Part shown: piece by piece, positions 1 to 8,511 of the stretch
How the letters are laid out: every line of letters begins with the position of its first letter
Position numbering within the stretch: the first letter of the stretch is position 1
Origin: Melaminivora suipulveris
Lineage (GTDB): Bacteria > Pseudomonadota > Gammaproteobacteria > Burkholderiales > Burkholderiaceae_C
DNA length: 64,000 nucleotides
Assembly (NCBI RefSeq): GCF_003008575.1
Contig: NZ_CP027667.1
Span: 2,752,001-2,816,000 of the forward strand
Reading direction: 5' to 3'
The notes under the pieces: model-generated
Database searches by the model: none
Told to the model about the DNA's origin: nothing
What the model saw: the letters and a program-made list of their open reading frames with translations, nothing else
Translations under genes and position numbers: made by a program

Positions 1-99
1 GCGCTTTTCCTCGGGCAGGCGGTCGGTTTCAACGCCGGTCAGGGCGCGCACCAGCGTGGTCTTGCCGTGGTCGATATGGCCGGCGGTGCCGATGATCAT
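1..99 (-). CDS. selB: Selenocysteine-specific elongation factor SelB (N-terminal fragment, cut by window edge)
   Basis: Only the first 33 codons lie in the window; the gene continues beyond base 1. SelB is the GTPase that delivers Sec-tRNA to UGA codons that carry a SECIS hairpin. The visible N-terminus begins [15 protein letters not shown], with the G1 P-loop (GHIDHGKT) in the form typical of SelB rather than EF-Tu, then an [14 protein letters not shown] stretch also typical of SelB. The start is the ATG at 97-99; codons upstream in frame are not start codons. It lies just downstream of selA on the same strand, separated by a repeat at 119-170. The C-terminal SECIS-binding domain cannot be checked here. 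Confidence 0.93.
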
Positions 100-175: not shown

Positions 176-1612
176 TCAAATCTGCGCCAGCGCCTTGCCC
201 AGCAGCGGCAGCTGTGCCTGGAAGGCTGGCAGCTCGTGCGCCTCCAGGCAGCGCAGGTCCAGCCACAGCGCGCCGGATTCGATGCGGCCGATGACCGGGC
301 GAGGCAGGGCGCGCAGGGCGGCTTCCAGCCGGGCCAGCGCGCTTCCCGCGCCCTTGGATTGCACCGGCTGCAGCGCCAGACCCCAGCTGGGCAGGGTGTT
401 CACGGGCAGGGCGCCGCTGCCGATCTGGCTGGAGCACGCTGCGCTGCACACGGCGTAGCCGGCGCCGACCGCGCTTTGCACATCAGGCAGCAGCTGTGCG
501 ACTTGCGCCTGCATGTCGGCCTGCGGGCGGGTGAACAGGCGCAGCGTGGTCAGGCGCTCGGGCAGGCGTTCGGGCGTCAGGTACAGGCGCAGCACCGGCT
601 CCAGCGCCGCCAGGGTCAGCTTGCCCACGCGCAGGGCGCGCTTGAGCGGGTTCTTCTTGATGGCGGCGATCAAGTCCTTGCGGCCCACGATCAGCCCGGC
701 CTGCGGCCCGCCCAGCAGCTTGTCGCCGCTGAAGGTGACCAGATCGGCGCCGGCGGCGATGACGTCGCGCACCGTGGGCTCGTGCGGCAGGCCCCATTGC
801 GCCAGGTCCACCAGCGTGCCGCTGCCCAGGTCGACCACCAGCGGCAGACCGTGCGCGTGGGCTATGGCAGCGACCTCGGCCTCGGCCACGCTCTTGGTGA
901 AGCCGGTGATGGCGTAGTTGCTGCAATGCACCTTCATCAGCGCGGCGGTCTGCGCTCCGATGGCGCCCGCGTAGTCGTGCGCGTGCGTGCGGTTGGTGGT
1001 GCCGACCTCGACCAGCGTGCTGCCGGCGCGGGCCATGACGTCGGGAATGCGAAAGGCGCCGCCGATCTCCACCAGCTCGCCGCGCGAGACGATGGCCTCG
1101 CGGCCCAGCGCCAGGGTGTTCAGCGCCAGCAGCACGGCGGCGGCGTTGTTGTTGACCACCGTGGCAGCCTCGGCGCCGGTCAGCTCGCACAGCAAGTCCT
1201 CGACCAGGTCGTCGCGATCGCCGCGCCCGCCGGTGGCCAGGTCGTATTCCAGATTGGCCGGTGCCGTCAAAGCCTGCACCACGGCCTGCACGGCCGCATC
1301 GGGCAGCAGCGCGCGGCCCAGGTTGGTGTGCAGCACCGTGCCGGTGAGGTTGAACACGGTCTTGAAACGCGGCGCCAGGCGATCGGCCAGGCGCCGGGCG
1401 GCATGGTGGGCGATGGCCTCGGGCGCCAGCGCTTCGCCGTCCAGCTCACCGGCCAGCGCCGCCGGCCGCAGCGCGTCGATGGCCGCGCGCACGGCGGCGG
1501 TGGTGCTGCTGGCGCCGTGCTCGGCGCTCAATTGCCGCGCCAGCGGCGTGGACAGCACCCGGTCCACGCCGGGCAGGCGCGCGGCGGGCGCGGCACCGCT
1601 GGCGCTGCTCAT
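176..1612 (-). CDS. selA: L-seryl-tRNA(Sec) selenium transferase SelA
   Basis: Converts Ser-tRNA(Sec) to Sec-tRNA(Sec) with selenophosphate; PLP-dependent, homodecameric in the family. The 478-aa length matches the family (about 463 aa in E. coli). Visible family blocks are [16 protein letters not shown] (about 88-103), [37 protein letters not shown] and [13 protein letters not shown], where Lys at about residue 298 is the expected PLP lysine. The reading frame stays open upstream, but the ATG at 1610-1612 overlaps the fdhE stop (ATGA at 1609-1612), so translation is probably coupled to fdhE. selB follows downstream. Together with fdnG's UGA codon this shows an intact selenocysteine system. 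Confidence 0.97.
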
Positions 1613-2583
1613 GCCTCCGGGCCGGGCACGGCGGGGCCGGGGTCGGCGTCGGACATGGGCAGCAGCGGGTTCATGCTGGCGCGGGCGAAGTCGGTCTCGC
1701 CCATCAGCAGGTCCAGCAGCAGGGTCGCCAGGTCGTCGGCCAGCGGCTCGGCCAGGGGGTCTTTTTCCTGGTTCACCAGCTTGCGGTAGGTGTGGCAGCC
1801 ATCGCAGGTCTCGGCCAGCACCGTCTGGTCGGCCTGGGCGCTGCCGGGCTGCAGCTGCTCCAGGCCCTGGTACCGGATGCCGCGCGTGGACTCGCAGTGG
1901 CTGCACTTGACGCGCACCATGTGCCACTCGGTGGCGCAGGTGCCGCAGTGCAGGTAGCGCAGGCCGGCGGACTGCCCGCCGATGCGCAGCACGCTGGCCA
2001 CGGGCGCCGTGCCGCAGACCGGGCAGATGGTGGCCGGGTCGGTGTAGGGGATGTCGGCCTCGCGCAGGCGGCTGGCGCGGTCGGCAAACACCACCTGCAA
2101 CGCCGCCATGACCAGGGGCGCGGCGGCCAGGTCCTCGCTCTCGCTCAGCAAGCCGACCAGCACGCGGCGCGCCAGCGTGTCGCGCTCGTCCTGCGGCATG
2201 GCGCGCAGGCGGGCGATGGTGGGCACGAGCTGCTCGGGCAGGCCAGGCGCGTCCTGCACCGCGTCCAGCAGCTGATCCAGCACGCCGTGCCAGGCCGGAT
2301 CGACGTGGCTGGCGGCAGGCAGCAGGGGCATGGAATGCTCCTGCGCCTGGGCGATGGCCTGCGCGTCGGGCGCGGCGGTCTGCACCGTGGCTGCCGCGTG
2401 CTGCTGCGCGCGCGCCAGATGCGACAGGAACAGCAGGTAGTCGCCGATCGGGTTGTCCTGCGCCTTCTGCGCCAGCCGCGCGGCGCGGTCGGCGAACAGC
2501 TCGACCGGCCGAGGCAGACGCACGCGCTGCGGGCTGGTGCGGTCCAGGGCTTCGATATCACCTGGCTGCAAGATACGTTGCAT
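1609..2583 (-). CDS. fdhE: Formate dehydrogenase accessory protein FdhE
   Basis: Cytoplasmic maturation factor needed for active formate dehydrogenases N/O; binds the catalytic subunit and is thought to act at its metal or redox centre. The 324-aa protein has four CXXC pairs in its C-terminal half (Cys187/190, 213/216, 227/230, 260/263), the rubredoxin-like zinc or iron ligands of FdhE, and the family block [11 protein letters not shown] followed by [14 protein letters not shown]. The start is the ATG at 2581-2583. Its stop overlaps the selA start by 4 nt. About 208 bp separate it from fdnI upstream, and that gap carries a repeat. Confidence 0.95.
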
Positions 2584-2699: not shown

Positions 2700-2797
2700 A
2701 CCCAATGCCAGTGGACGCCGTGGATCGGGCTTCGCCCGTCCAGTGGCGTCGCCCCCTTGAGGGGGAGGCGCCGCAGGCGCCTCGGGGGTGGTCAAGA
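2700..2797 (-). repeat. Intergenic repeat family B, copy 1 (hairpin-rich)
   Basis: About 98 bp between fdnI and fdhE, beginning at the stop codon of fdnI. Read on the minus strand it contains nested inverted repeats: GGCGCC-TGCG-GGCGCC-like arms, CCCCCTCAAGGGGG, and GGGCGAAGCCC. A second copy lies at 45115-45231, again directly at the 3' end of a minus-strand gene, in the same orientation. It may act as an mRNA 3' hairpin or attenuator between fdnI and fdhE. Function is inferred from position only. Confidence 0.65.
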
Positions 2798-3418
2798 ATT
2801 GTCTCCGGTCATCTTGCGATACCAGCCCCGGTGGTGCTGCTTGGCCCAGGCGCGCGTCACCGTGCCGTAGAGCATGGCGCGGATGGTGCCGCGCGTCCAG
2901 ATCGCGGCATAGACGTGCAGGATGAAGATCAGCAGCATGACCACGGCCGAGATCGCATGCACGACGGAGGCCAGGCGCACCAGGTCCACCGGCAGCGTCA
3001 GCCAGGCGCGCCACATCATCACGCCGCTCACGATGAGCAGCAGCAGGCACAGCAGGAAGCCCCAGAACACGAGCTTCTGACCGCCGTTGTACTTGCCCTG
3101 CTCGGGCATGTCGTGGTCGTCGCCGTCCACCATCTTGCCGATGTTCTTCAGCCACTCGACGTCGCGCCGCTCCAACAGGTTCAGCGCGGCGAAGCGCACG
3201 ATCATGCCCAGGAAGAACACGAACATGACCACCCCGATGTAGGGGTGCAGGATGCGCGCCCACGGCCCGCCGCCGAAGAACTGCACCAGCGGGTAGAAGG
3301 CCGGGTGGAAGAACGCCAGGCCCGACAGGGCCAGCAGGATGAAGCAGATGCCCACGATCCAGTGGTTCACCCGCTCGCCGGCGGTGTAGCGCGGCAAATC
3401 GCGTGGATTGCGAATCAT
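2792..3418 (-). CDS. fdnI: Formate dehydrogenase gamma subunit, cytochrome b556
   Basis: Inner-membrane anchor that passes electrons from the beta subunit through two b hemes to quinone. The 208-aa protein has about four hydrophobic segments (near residues 20-40, 58-78, 108-130, 145-168), with His residues in ERVNHWI, ILHPYIG and near FILHVYAA as candidate heme ligands, as known for FdnI. The start ATG (3416-3418) overlaps the fdxH stop by 4 nt, so it is coupled. The stop codon lies inside the edge of repeat B. The length matches E. coli FdnI (217 aa). Confidence 0.95.
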
Positions 3419-4344
3419 GGCAGTCTCCCCCTGGCGGCAGCTTCCGCCTCACGGTCCTTGAGTTCCATCTCTCGCTCCAGCTCCTCGGACACCTCGTTGG
3501 GGCCTTTGGAGATGAAGTGAAACAGGCTGCCCAGGGCGGCTGCCCCCAGGGCAATCATGGCCAGCGGCTTGGACGCGCCCTTCCACAGGCTGACCATCGG
3601 GCTGATGCGCGGCGCGTCCGGCAGGCCCTGGTACAGCGACGGCTTGTCCGCGTGGTGCAGCACGTACATGACGTGCGTGCCGCCCACGCCGATGGGGTCG
3701 TACAGCCCGGCCTGCGCGAAGCCGCGCTCCTTGAGGTCCACGATGCGCTCGGCCGCGTGGTCCTTCATGGCCTGCTTGGTGCCGAACACGATGGCGCCCG
3801 TGGGGCAGGTCTTGACGCACGCCGGCTCCTGGCCCACCGCCACGCGGTCGGAGCACAGAGTGCACTTGTACGCCTTGTTGTCCTGCTTGGAGATGCGCGG
3901 CACGTTGAACGGGCAGCCGGTGATGCAGTAGCCGCAGCCGATGCAGTGCTCCTCGTGGAAGTCCACGATGCCGTTGGTGTACTGCACGATGGCGCCGGGC
4001 GCCGGGCAGGCCTTCAGGCACCCTGGGTCCTCGCAGTGCATGCAGCCGTCCTTGCGGATCAGCCACTCCAGGTTGCCCGACGCCTCGTTCTCGTATTCGG
4101 TGAAGCGCATCACCGTCCAAGCGTTGGGCGTCAGGTCCGTGGGGTTGTCGTAGGTGCCGTGCGTGCTGCCCGGCTCCTGGCGCAGGTCGTTCCACTCCAT
4201 GCACGCCGTCTGGCAGGCCTTGCAGCCTATGCACTTGGAGACGTCGATCAGCTTGGCCACGTCGCCCGAGTGCGGGTTGCGTGCCTGCGGCGCGGGCGAC
4301 GTGGTGGCCGAAATGCGCTGGATATCAAGGGATTGCAATGCCAT
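3415..4344 (-). CDS. fdxH: Formate dehydrogenase beta subunit, four-cluster Fe-S protein
   Basis: Electron-transfer subunit of formate dehydrogenase N/O. The 309-aa protein carries four Cys clusters of ferredoxin type ([42 protein letters not shown] and CTLCSDR with [10 protein letters not shown]), expected to bind four [4Fe-4S]. A single C-terminal membrane helix (about residues 255-275) anchors it, as in FdnH. It starts at the ATG 4342-4344, 11 nt after fdnG, and overlaps fdnI by 4 nt. It has no signal peptide of its own and is presumably exported with the Tat-targeted alpha subunit. Confidence 0.96.
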
Positions 4345-4355
4345 CTCGCGCCTCC

Positions 4356-7300
4356 TTACGCTTTCTCGACCTTGACCAGGAAGGTCTTGAACTCGGGCGT
4401 GTTGGTGTTTCCGTCACCCACGAAGGGGGTCAGGATGTTGGCCAGGTAGCCCGGTTTGGTCAGGCCCTTGAAGCCCCAGTGGATGGGGATGCCCACGTGG
4501 TGCACGGTCTTGCCCTCGATCTGCATCGGCTTGATGCGCTTGGTCACCACCGCCACGGCCTTGATGTGGCCGCGCTTGGAGCTGACCTTGACGCGGTCGC
4601 CCGCGGCGATACCCAGCTCCCGGGCCATGGCCTCGCCGATTTCCACGAACTGCTCGGGCTGCGTGATGGCGTTGACCAGCGAGTGCTTGGTCCAGTAGTG
4701 GAAGTGCTCGGTCAGGCGGTACGTTGTGCCCACGTGCGGGAAGTCCTGCGCGCGGCCAAAGGTGTCCCAGATGTTGTCGAACACCCGCGCGGCCGGCGAA
4801 GACGTGGCCTTGGGGTTGTTCGGGTACATCGGGTTGCGGCCGATGGGCGTGTCGAACGGCTCGTAGTGCGTCGGGAACGGCCCCTCGGCCAGGCCCTTCC
4901 TGGCAAAGAAGCGCGCCACACCCTCGGGGTTCATGATGAACGGGCCGTTGCCGGTCTCCGGGGCGATGGCGACACCCGTGTCGGGCACGTCGGCGCCTAC
5001 CCAGGCGCGGCCGTTCCACTCCACCAGCTTGCGCCGGGGGTTGAACGGCTTGCCTTCGAGGTCGGCCGAGGCGCGGTTGTAGAGCACGCGGCGGTTGGCC
5101 GGCCAGGCCCAGGCCCAGTTGAGCGTGTTGCCGATGCCCGTGGGGTCGGAGTTGTCGCGCCGCGACATCTGGTTGCCCGCCTGCGTCCAGCAGCCGGCGT
5201 AGATCCAGCAGCCACTGGCGGTGGTGCCGTCGTCGCGCAGCTCGGCAAAACCGGCCACCTGCTGGCCCGCGGCGCGGATGACCTTGGTCGGATCCTTGGG
5301 ATCGACCAGATCCACCAGCGCGCGGCCGTTGTACTCCTTGGCCAGCTCTTCCGAGGTCGGATGGCCGGCCTGGGCGTACTTCCAGTCCAGGTTCAGGATG
5401 GGGTCGGGGAAGGCGCCGCCGTCCTTGGCGTACAGCGCCTTCATCTGCAGGTGCAGCCCGGCCATGATGGCCACGTCGGTGCGCGCCTCGCCCGGCGGCT
5501 CGGCGGCCTTCCAGTGCCACTGCAGCACGCGGGAGGAACTGACCACCGTGCCTTCTTCCTCGGCAAAGCAGGTCGTGGGCAGGCGAAAGACCTCGGTCTT
5601 GACGGCCGCCGTGTCGATGTCGTTGAACTCGCCGTGGTTCTTCCAGAACTCGGACGTCTCGGTGGCCAGCGGGTCCATGACGACCAGGAACTTGAGCTTG
5701 GCCAGGCCGTCGCGCACGCGGTGGCTGTTGGACAGCGCCGCGATCGGGTTGAAGCCCTGCGCGATGTAGCCGTTGACCTTGCCCTCGTTCATGAGCTGGA
5801 AGATCTGCAGCATGTCGTACTGCCGGTCCAGCTTGGGCAGGTACTCGAACGCCCAGTTGTTCTCGGCCGTGGCGGCCGCGCCGAAGAAGGACTTCATGAG
5901 GCTGACGTGGAACTTCGGATAGTTCTGCCAGTAGCTCATCTGGTTGGCGCGCAGCGGCTTTTGCGTGCGCGCGGCGATGTAGGCGCCGTAGTCCTGCTCC
6001 TTGTCGCTGGGCAGCGACAGATAGCCCGGCAGGCTGGCCGACAACAGGCCCAGGTCGGTCAGGCCCTGGATGTTGGAGTGCCCGCGCAGCGCGTTCATGC
6101 CGCCGCCGGACACGCCGATGTTGCCGCACAGCAGCTGCACCATGGCCGCGCAGCGCAGGATCTGCGAGCCGGTGGAGTGCTGCGTCCAGCCCAGCGCGTA
6201 CATGATGGTCGCGGCGCGGCCCGGCACGGCGGTGGAGGCGAACTTCTCGCACACGTGCAGGAACTTGTCCCTGGGCGTGCCGCAGACGCTCTCCACCTTC
6301 TCCGGCGTGTATGACGCATAGTGCTGCTTCATCAGCTGGTATACGCAGCGCGGGTGCTGCAGGCTCGGGTCGGTCTTCACATAACCGTCCTCGCCCAGCT
6401 CGTAGTCCCAGCTCTTCTTGTCGTAGGTGCGCTTTTCCTCGTTGTAGCCCGAGAAGATGCCGTCCACGAACTCGTAGTCATCGCGCACGATGAAGCTGAA
6501 GTCCGTGTAGTTGTGCACGTACTCGTGGTGGATCTTGTCGTTGCTGAGCAGGTAATTGATGATCCCGCCCAGAAAGACGATGTCCGAGCCCGAACGGATC
6601 GGGGCGTAGAAATCCGCCACCGACGCCGAGCGGTTGAAGCGCGGGTCGACCACCATGAAGTGCGCCTTGTTGTGCGCCTTCGCTTCGGTCACCCACTTGA
6701 AACCGCAGGGGTGGGCTTCGGCGGCATTGCCGCCCATGATCAAAATTACGTCCGCATTCTTGATGTCGACCCAATGGTTCGTCATCGCTCCACGGCCAAA
6801 CGTCGGGGCAAGACCTGCCACCGTCGGGCCGTGTCAAACACGGGCTTGGTTGTCGAATGCCAGCAGGCCCCAGGAGCGGGCCACTTTGTGCGTGATGTAG
6901 CCGGCCTCGTTGCTGGAGGCCGAAGCGGCCAGCATGCCGGTGGAGATCCAGCGGTTGACCGTGAGCCCTTCGGCGTTCTTGGCCTGGAAGTTGGCGTCGC
7001 GGTCTTCCTTGAGCAGTTTGGCGATGCGGGTGAGCGCGTCGTCCCAGGACAGGCGCTTCCACTCATTGGAGCCCGGCGCGCGGTACTCGGGGTACAGCAG
7101 GCGGTTGGGGCTGTTGATGAAGTCCAGCAGGCCCGCGCCCTTGGGGCACAGCGTGCCGCGGTTGACCGGATGGTCCGGGTCGCCCTCGACGTGGATGACG
7201 GACTTGCGGGCGTTGGCCGAGCCGTCGCCCAGCGAATACATGAGAAGGCCGCAGCCGACTGAGCAATAGGTGCAGGTCTGGCGGGTGACCGTGGCAGCGG

Positions 7301-7421
7301 CCAGCTTGTACTGGCGTACCTCGGCCAGCGCGGTCGCGGGCGAAAAGCCCATGGCAACCAGGCTGGTGCCCACCAGCCCCGCTCCGCTCATGCGGAAGAA
7401 GTGCCGGCGGTTCATATCCAT
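4356..7421 (-). CDS. fdnG: Formate dehydrogenase-N alpha subunit, selenocysteine-containing
   Basis: Catalytic subunit that oxidises formate to CO2 at a Mo-bis-MGD centre on the periplasmic side. The gene must be read through an in-frame TGA at 6834-6836. It then encodes 1021 aa with selenocysteine at residue 196, followed by His197 and [14 protein letters not shown], as in E. coli FdnG/FdoG (about 1015 aa, Sec196 from memory). Residues 5-10 RRHFFR plus a hydrophobic stretch to about 33 form a Tat signal. Cys50, 53, 57 and 92 should bind [4Fe-4S]. The start ATG has AGGAGG at 7429-7434, 7 nt upstream. It leads the operon fdnGHI-fdhE-selAB. Splitting it into two ORFs would be an annotation error. 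Confidence 0.96.
6791..6833 (-). promoter_or_regulatory. Bacterial SECIS hairpin directing Sec insertion in fdnG
   Basis: Immediately after the TGA on the minus strand, CACGGCC (6827-6833) pairs perfectly with GGCCGTG (6791-6797). An inner GGCA/TGCC stem closes a GGTCT apical loop (6811-6815). The loop begins 18 nt after the TGA, the same spacing and loop sequence I recall for the E. coli fdhF SECIS recognised by SelB. The hairpin overlaps coding sequence, as bacterial SECIS elements do. Confidence 0.92.
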
Positions 7422-7434: not shown

Positions 7435-7662
7435 GTCGTGGGGAAATCGGGTGTTGTCGTGCCATCTTCCCGGCAAGTTGCGCGCAGCAGCTAGGGGTTA
7501 ACACTTGGTCGGCCTGACCAAAAGCCGGCAGAGGGCGATGGCGGGGCGGCGCGCCTGCCGCCCGTAGCAACCATCATAGTGTCATGGGAATGCCTGACAA
7601 GGGCAGTCGGGGCAGCCACCGCGCGCGCCAAGGGCATGGGGCCGGCTGGTATCGTCCGGGCC

Positions 7663-8511
7663 ATGTCGGCCGCCGATTTCCCTCTCTCCGCCAGCCTGTT
7701 GCCCGAACCGCTGGCGCCGCTGCGCGCGCTGCAGGCGCAGCAGTGGCACGCCGGCGCCGGCGTGCAGCCCCAGGCGGTCGAGCTGGCGGCCGAGGTGCCG
7801 GTGGCGCTGGTCTTCAACGGCATCTCGCACGCGGTCATGATGGCCACGCCGCAGGACCTGGCCGAGTTCGCCATCGGCTTCGCCCTGAGCGAGGGCGTGG
7901 TCGAGCACGCCCACGAGTGCCGCGACGTCGAGGTATTGCAGCATGGTGTGGGCACGGCCGACGAGAGCTGCACCGTGCATGTCGAAATTCCGCCACGCCA
8001 CTTCGCGCGCCTGAAGGAACGCCGCCGCGCGCTCGTCGGCCGCACCGGCTGCGGCGTGTGCGGCATCGACAGCCTGGCGGCGCTGGACCTGCATCCCGAG
8101 GCGCTGGCCGCGCCCGCCTGGCGCGGACGGCTTGACGCCGCCACCGTGCTGCGCCCCTTCGCCACGCTGGGCCAGCGCCAGCGGCTCAACGCCCGCGCCG
8201 GCTCGCTGCACGCCGCCGGCTGGGCCACGCCGGCTGGCGAGTTGACCGACGTGCTGGAGGACGTGGGCCGGCACAACGCGCTGGACAAGCTCTTTGGCCG
8301 CCTGGCGCTGGCCGGGCGCCTGGGCGAGGCGGGTTTCATCGTCATGACCAGCCGCACCAGCTATGAGCTGGTGCGCAAGTGCGCGCGCATGCAGGTGCCG
8401 GCGTTCGCCACCATCTCCGCGCCGACCACGCTGGCGCTGCAGCTGGCGCAGGAGGCCGGCATGCACCTGTGGGGCCTGTGCCGACCGCCGACTGCGCTGC
8501 GTTATGTCTGA
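7663..8511 (+). CDS. fdhD: Formate dehydrogenase accessory sulfurtransferase FdhD
   Basis: Transfers sulfur from the cysteine desulfurase to the Mo-bis-MGD cofactor before insertion into formate dehydrogenase. The 282-aa protein shows FNGISHAVMMATP, FAIGFALSEGV, the redox loop GRTGCGVCGIDS (the CXXC cysteines that carry sulfur), EDVGRHNALDKL and SRTSYELVRKCARM, all FdhD landmarks. I chose the ATG at 7663; an in-frame ATG at 7579 would add 28 poorly conserved-looking residues. It is divergent from fdnG and therefore probably shares its control region. Its 3' end overlaps the next gene by 8 nt. Confidence 0.95.
   Translation: MSAADFPLSASLLPEPLAPLRALQAQQWHAGAGVQPQAVELAAEVPVALVFNGISHAVMMATPQDLAEFAIGFALSEGVVEHAHECRDVEVLQHGVGTADESCTVHVEIPPRHFARLKERRRALVGRTGCGVCGIDSLAALDLHPEALAAPAWRGRLDAATVLRPFATLGQRQRLNARAGSLHAAGWATPAGELTDVLEDVGRHNALDKLFGRLALAGRLGEAGFIVMTSRTSYELVRKCARMQVPAFATISAPTTLALQLAQEAGMHLWGLCRPPTALRYV

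Follow-up and report, generated by a model that had tools for sequence, protein, structure and literature searches.

Escherichia coli FdnG is the major subunit of the nitrate-inducible formate dehydrogenase (1kqf), and we take fdnG, fdhE, selA, selB and selC to be scattered in that organism. Formate dehydrogenase alpha subunits as a group are described as one of the first bacterial selenoprotein families to be confirmed and as the one with the widest distribution, and are marked by selenocysteine (Sec) in a UHxP motif (excerpt of PMC13188914). In Pseudomonadales, a selA-selB-selC operon has been described beside fdhA with selD separate, and formate dehydrogenases in which Cys replaces Sec are on record (both from an excerpt of PMC1794560). 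Selenocysteine at sense codons is also in print, including a cysteine codon in Aeromonas salmonicida (Mukai et al. 2016, through an excerpt of PMC10778597).

We analyzed a window of 64,000 nucleotides (the whole stretch of DNA under study, positions 2752001-2816000) from the single-contig genome of Melaminivora suipulveris (3,754,020 bases). It carries a formate dehydrogenase alpha subunit gene with one in-frame TGA, which is almost certainly a canonical bacterial selenoprotein gene whose UGA196 would be read as Sec by way of a SECIS hairpin. The gene and its surroundings comprise the following features, in window coordinates unless another locus or genome positions are given.

2726749-2727681 of the genome, roughly 24 kb to the left of the window: selD
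L002 12043-12137, past selB: selC (tRNA-Sec), anticodon TCA (tRNA-Sec model, 73.1 bits, and ARAGORN)
1..99, continuing left of the window (L002 12144-14099), minus strand: selB, 5' part (TIGR00475, 448 bits, cut-off 242.25)
176..1612, minus strand: selA, L-seryl-tRNA(Sec) selenium transferase, with predicted start ATG 1612 (TIGR00474, 585.8 bits, matching residues 116-573 in the mechanical ORF 176-1927)
1609..2583, minus strand: fdhE, formate dehydrogenase accessory protein (TIGR01562, 247.4 bits, cut-off 187.65)
2792..3418, minus strand: fdoI/fdnI, formate dehydrogenase gamma (cytochrome b) subunit (TIGR01583, 183.5 bits, cut-off 115.85)
3415..4344, minus strand: fdoH/fdnH, formate dehydrogenase beta (iron-sulphur) subunit (TIGR01582, 462.3 bits, cut-off 334.7)
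4356..7421, minus strand: fdnG/fdoG, formate dehydrogenase-N alpha subunit, predicted Sec at 196 (TIGR01553 and alignment to 1kqf_A)
6781..6839, minus strand: bacterial SECIS element (SECIS_3), TGA included (RF01989, 84.4 bits)
6811..6815, minus strand: apical loop GGTCT (sequence and fold)
6820, minus strand: bulged T (U) between two stem segments (unpaired in SECIS_3)
6834..6836, minus strand: TGA, predicted selenocysteine codon 196 (the only internal stop; X in the 1kqf_A column)
7579..8511, plus strand: fdhD, formate dehydrogenase accessory sulfurtransferase, upstream of and divergent to fdnG (TIGR00129, 166.6 bits, cut-off 140.9)

Downstream of the alpha subunit, the genes for the beta and gamma subunits, fdhE, selA, selB and tRNA-Sec follow in the same direction, with tRNA-Sec six bases past the end of selB. 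In contrast to the scattered arrangement that we take for E. coli, the gene runs together with fdhE, selA, selB and selC. The nearest named relatives (among the best 80 of 592) belong to genera that we place in Burkholderiales, with genus names taken from record titles; in this the locus differs from the Pseudomonadales fdhA locus. The arrangement is otherwise as in that locus, where selA, selB and selC lie together and adjoin fdhA while selD stands apart (excerpt of PMC1794560). The sequence-only reading of this DNA would fail in a genome lacking functional selC and selD; genes for both are present, along with selA and selB, and the four together make up the bacterial Sec-decoding trait.

The frame of the alpha subunit extends from ATG 7421 to a terminal TAA ending at 4356 (minus strand) and translates into 1,021 residues when TGA is read as U. 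That TGA (6836-6834), placed to the base by the sequence-only reading, is codon 196 and the sole internal stop; it is preceded by NQARV and begins U196-H-G-P, in agreement with the UHxP motif. Plain ORF calling splits the gene into products of 195 and 821 aa; the public models SECIS_3 and TIGR01553 recognize such a case. The readthrough protein scores 1456.6 bits against TIGR01553 (NCBIfam, formate dehydrogenase-N alpha; cut-off 814.2; residues 3-1020) and contains Fe4S4, molybdopterin and dinucleotide-binding Pfam domains. Its alignment with 1kqf_A runs over the full length (residues 1-1021 on 1-1015 of the chain; 1546.3 bits) and has no gap from residue 1 as far as the column of residue 196, where the E. 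coli chain carries X, a non-standard residue. The same QARV and HGP flanks occur in 1kqf, and with the ungapped alignment they bear out the E. coli codon number and the FdnG active-site context given in the sequence-only reading. By analogy with FdnG, Sec196 would presumably be a metal ligand. The assignment to an FdnG-type enzyme holds, and the gene may be either fdnG or fdoG. The alpha subunit matches formate dehydrogenase-N alpha. For the gamma subunit, the better match is PRK10639 "cytochrome b556 subunit", which we take to be FdoI, at 231.3 bits, with PRK10179 "formate dehydrogenase-N subunit gamma" at 196.7 bits; each score falls short of the cut-off of its model.

Immediately after the TGA, bases 6833-6827 form a perfect 7-bp complement of GGCCGTG at 6797-6791, and an inner stem, GGCA/TGCC (6819-6816 / 6810-6807), closes the GGTCT loop (6815-6811), which begins 18 nt after the TGA. 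Both stems, the loop and its distance, and the overall span of 6791-6836 are those proposed from the letters alone. Rfam SECIS_3 (RF01989) matches at 84.4 bits over all 59 positions (gathering score 63, E 1.3e-18 in the window), and this is the single match in the whole genome (E 1.9e-20); of 14 control genomes, E. coli alone has one. A 55-nt RNA folds into the same hairpin at -26.7 kcal/mol (z = -2.67, with 1 of 200 shuffles as good) and a 48-nt segment has a minimum free energy (MFE) of -25.5 kcal/mol. Published bSECIS limits (excerpt of PMC13188914) are a loop 16-37 nt after UGA, a loop length of 3-9 nt, a G in the first two loop positions and an MFE of at most -7.5 kcal/mol; at 18 nt, with GGUCU and at either folding energy, the element lies within all of them, and the description of it as canonical stands.

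Pairing in this hairpin is retained among relatives. In a covariation test on 16 distinct rows with 500 shuffles, 92.6% of pair cells were standard versus 87.2% after shuffling, two-sided changes occurred in 11 cells, and covariation was 0.187 versus 0.098; none of the 500 shuffles reached any of these three values. With partners offset by 1-3 columns, 27-48% were paired. Against this, the outer A-U pair (columns 8/48) is non-standard in 11 of the 16 rows; in the same rows, the count of pairs that show a two-sided change was not exceptional (121 of 500 shuffles). Synonymous constraint gave no signal over the 16 codons after the TGA (diversity 0.293 versus a gene mean of 0.306), as 75 of 201 segments along the gene were as low as, or lower than, the SECIS region.

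Across a family sample of 150 genomes, our own included, 37 encode the alpha subunit (protein called at E <= 1e-100). One internal TGA is present in 36 of these 37, and SECIS_3 exceeds its gathering score in exactly those 36 and in no others of the 150. For 30 of the 37 genomes, one locus each was read at the aligned column: 29 have TGA there and one, genome G126, has TGT. A further sample of named loci, the best 80 of 592 confirmed, has TGA in all 80 when each is read in the aligned frame at the corresponding position, with the bulged T kept in all 80 and the loop reading GGTCT in 73 and AGTCT in 7. The two samples overlap, for example in contigs of 23502 and 379194 bases. A motif search had placed TGC at one of these 80 loci (L061); this was dropped, since the aligned frame shows TGA at that position. 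The highest identity among the same best 80 of 592 is 88%, to Xenophilus sp. Marseille-Q4582 (records of our own genome may be left out). One family genome (G091:C1:3317946-3321077) has its FdnG match divided into two segments, covering 1-721 and 710-1020 of the query, which share a frame and start 2202 bases apart, as if by local insertion.

SelB exceeds its cut-off in 40 of the 150 genomes, and 35 of the 39 listed belong to the 36 with TGA. Genome G071 has TGA, SECIS, selA and tRNA-Sec, with no selB over cut-off among the matches listed. Four genomes (G011, G037, G094 and G134) have selB over cut-off and no FdnG-type TGA, again among the matches listed; the tRNA-Sec anticodon is TCA in G011 and G134. 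In G134 (L126), selB and tRNA-Sec are present with no selA match and no SECIS_3 match, and the first 35 model positions of selB, which lies close to a contig end, are unmatched; the Sec system of this genome is perhaps decaying or perhaps broken by the contig.

The cysteine version in G126 (L041) offers a comparison from within the family. SECIS_3 scores 30.2 bits in this genome, far below the cut-off of 63, and there is no selA match. No tRNA-Sec exceeds the cut-off in this genome (best 45.4 versus 47, similar to the best sub-cut-off matches of 43 to 46 in other genomes), and no selB does (the best match has E 3.2e-31, a value in the range seen where selB is lacking). The TGT segment still folds well (-21.3 kcal/mol, z -1.90); what has decayed is the SECIS_3 score and the loop, not all folding. 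As read from its sequence, G126 is a cysteine version without the machinery above cut-off. Because UGA, SECIS_3 and machinery above cut-off are absent together, it serves as a natural control that supports the selenocysteine call in the window.

A stop in frame between ORFs of 195 and 821 aa would also be left if a nonsense mutation or a sequencing error had broken fdnG and made it a pseudogene. We regard this as vanishingly improbable, given the TGA in 36 of 37 family holders (the same 36 with SECIS_3 over cut-off) and in all of the best 80 of 592 named loci, and given that the frame holds no further stop. A milder alternative is that the UGA is read as Sec inefficiently, with the 195-residue termination product as the main outcome under many conditions; in its favor, recoding efficiency in vivo has been put at 30-40% and depends on selenium (excerpt of PMC4513850). 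The complete Sec pathway encoded here argues against it, and we consider it unlikely. We assume that the recoding figure is for E. coli.

Recoding of UGA196 as Sec would follow the route established in E. coli. SelA would turn the serine carried by tRNA-Sec (selC) into Sec, using selenophosphate from SelD, and SelB on the hairpin just past UGA196 would bring Sec-tRNA to the ribosome. Read through in this way, the UGA would yield the full 1021-residue catalytic subunit, which would join the beta and gamma subunits in a respiratory formate dehydrogenase; an N-terminal RR motif in the alpha subunit suggests Tat export. The frame, the UGA position, the sequence and structure of the SECIS, the homology, the four sel genes and their occurrence together in relatives are what the analysis shows; transcription, Sec insertion and enzyme activity are what we infer. 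The case in the window is a known system, ordinary and nothing new in kind, because the alpha selenoprotein family (excerpt of PMC13188914) and selA-selB-selC operons beside fdhA (excerpt of PMC1794560) are already in print. Among the papers listed for selenocysteine, formate dehydrogenase and Burkholderiales, no title dealt with this point.

Two of the genomes with selB and no FdnG-type TGA differ in their tRNA. In G037 and G094, a gene adjoining selB scores as tRNA-Sec (67.6 and 67.9 bits) with anticodon GCA, and ARAGORN names both tRNA-Cys; selA is present in both, on another contig in G094. A survey of 399 family genomes with an exact 29-base pattern, which would miss less similar genes, found tRNA-Sec(GCA) in five: four of five sampled in g38 (G037, G161, G242, G369) and one of five sampled in g94 (G094). 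G250 and G275 match with 2 and 3 mismatches and have the anticodon loop TTCAAA, not TGCAAA. The loci are as follows.

L123 7806-7902, plus strand: tRNA-Sec(GCA), G094
L123 2421-5429, minus strand: formate dehydrogenase with TGC, G094
L124 5065-5161, plus strand: tRNA-Sec(GCA), G037
L140, L141, L142: further tRNA-Sec(GCA) loci

All five end in GCCA with discriminator G, and because selC-like tRNA-Cys has been described with U73 (excerpt of PMC7609411), they look like tRNA-Sec by sequence. Four of the five genomes also encode a formate dehydrogenase alpha-like protein with TGC at QARI-C-H (in G094, 455.3 bits against TIGR01591, below the cut-off of 666.25); none was found in G161, searched on its 15.7-kb contig. 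At the four loci, a GGTGT loop follows the TGC 18 nt on; it is closed by a CGCC/GGCG stem, and there is an outer stem as well. In G011, with its TCA tRNA-Sec, a gene encodes the same peptide with TGC, but its wobble bases differ and the hairpin is missing. Against selenocysteine at this codon, three of the four TGC loci belong to one genus, and all four share one sequence over a stretch reaching from 18 nt upstream of the TGC to 38 nt downstream, an identity not confined to the hairpin. The fold of the hairpin beats shuffles by a small margin (z -1.55 and -1.05), smaller than that of the G126 cysteine gene, and SECIS_3 gives it 23 bits against a cut-off of 63 (E 0.0063 for 301 bases).

Within this one bacterial family, formate dehydrogenases may come in three versions: UGA-Sec in the window, cysteine without the machinery in G126, and UGC-Sec in g38 and g94 through tRNA-Sec(GCA) and a SECIS-like hairpin that the G011 gene lacks. 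We give this reading about an even chance and put UGC-Sec no higher because the tRNA evidence carries it and the hairpin evidence is weak. For the window, annotation should record a single selenoprotein of 1021 residues in place of two ORFs or a pseudogene. UGC-Sec, if true, would be a further example of sense-codon selenocysteine, a kind already in print (through the excerpt of PMC10778597), and the cysteine-anticodon tRNA-Sec of these relatives makes it a testable case.
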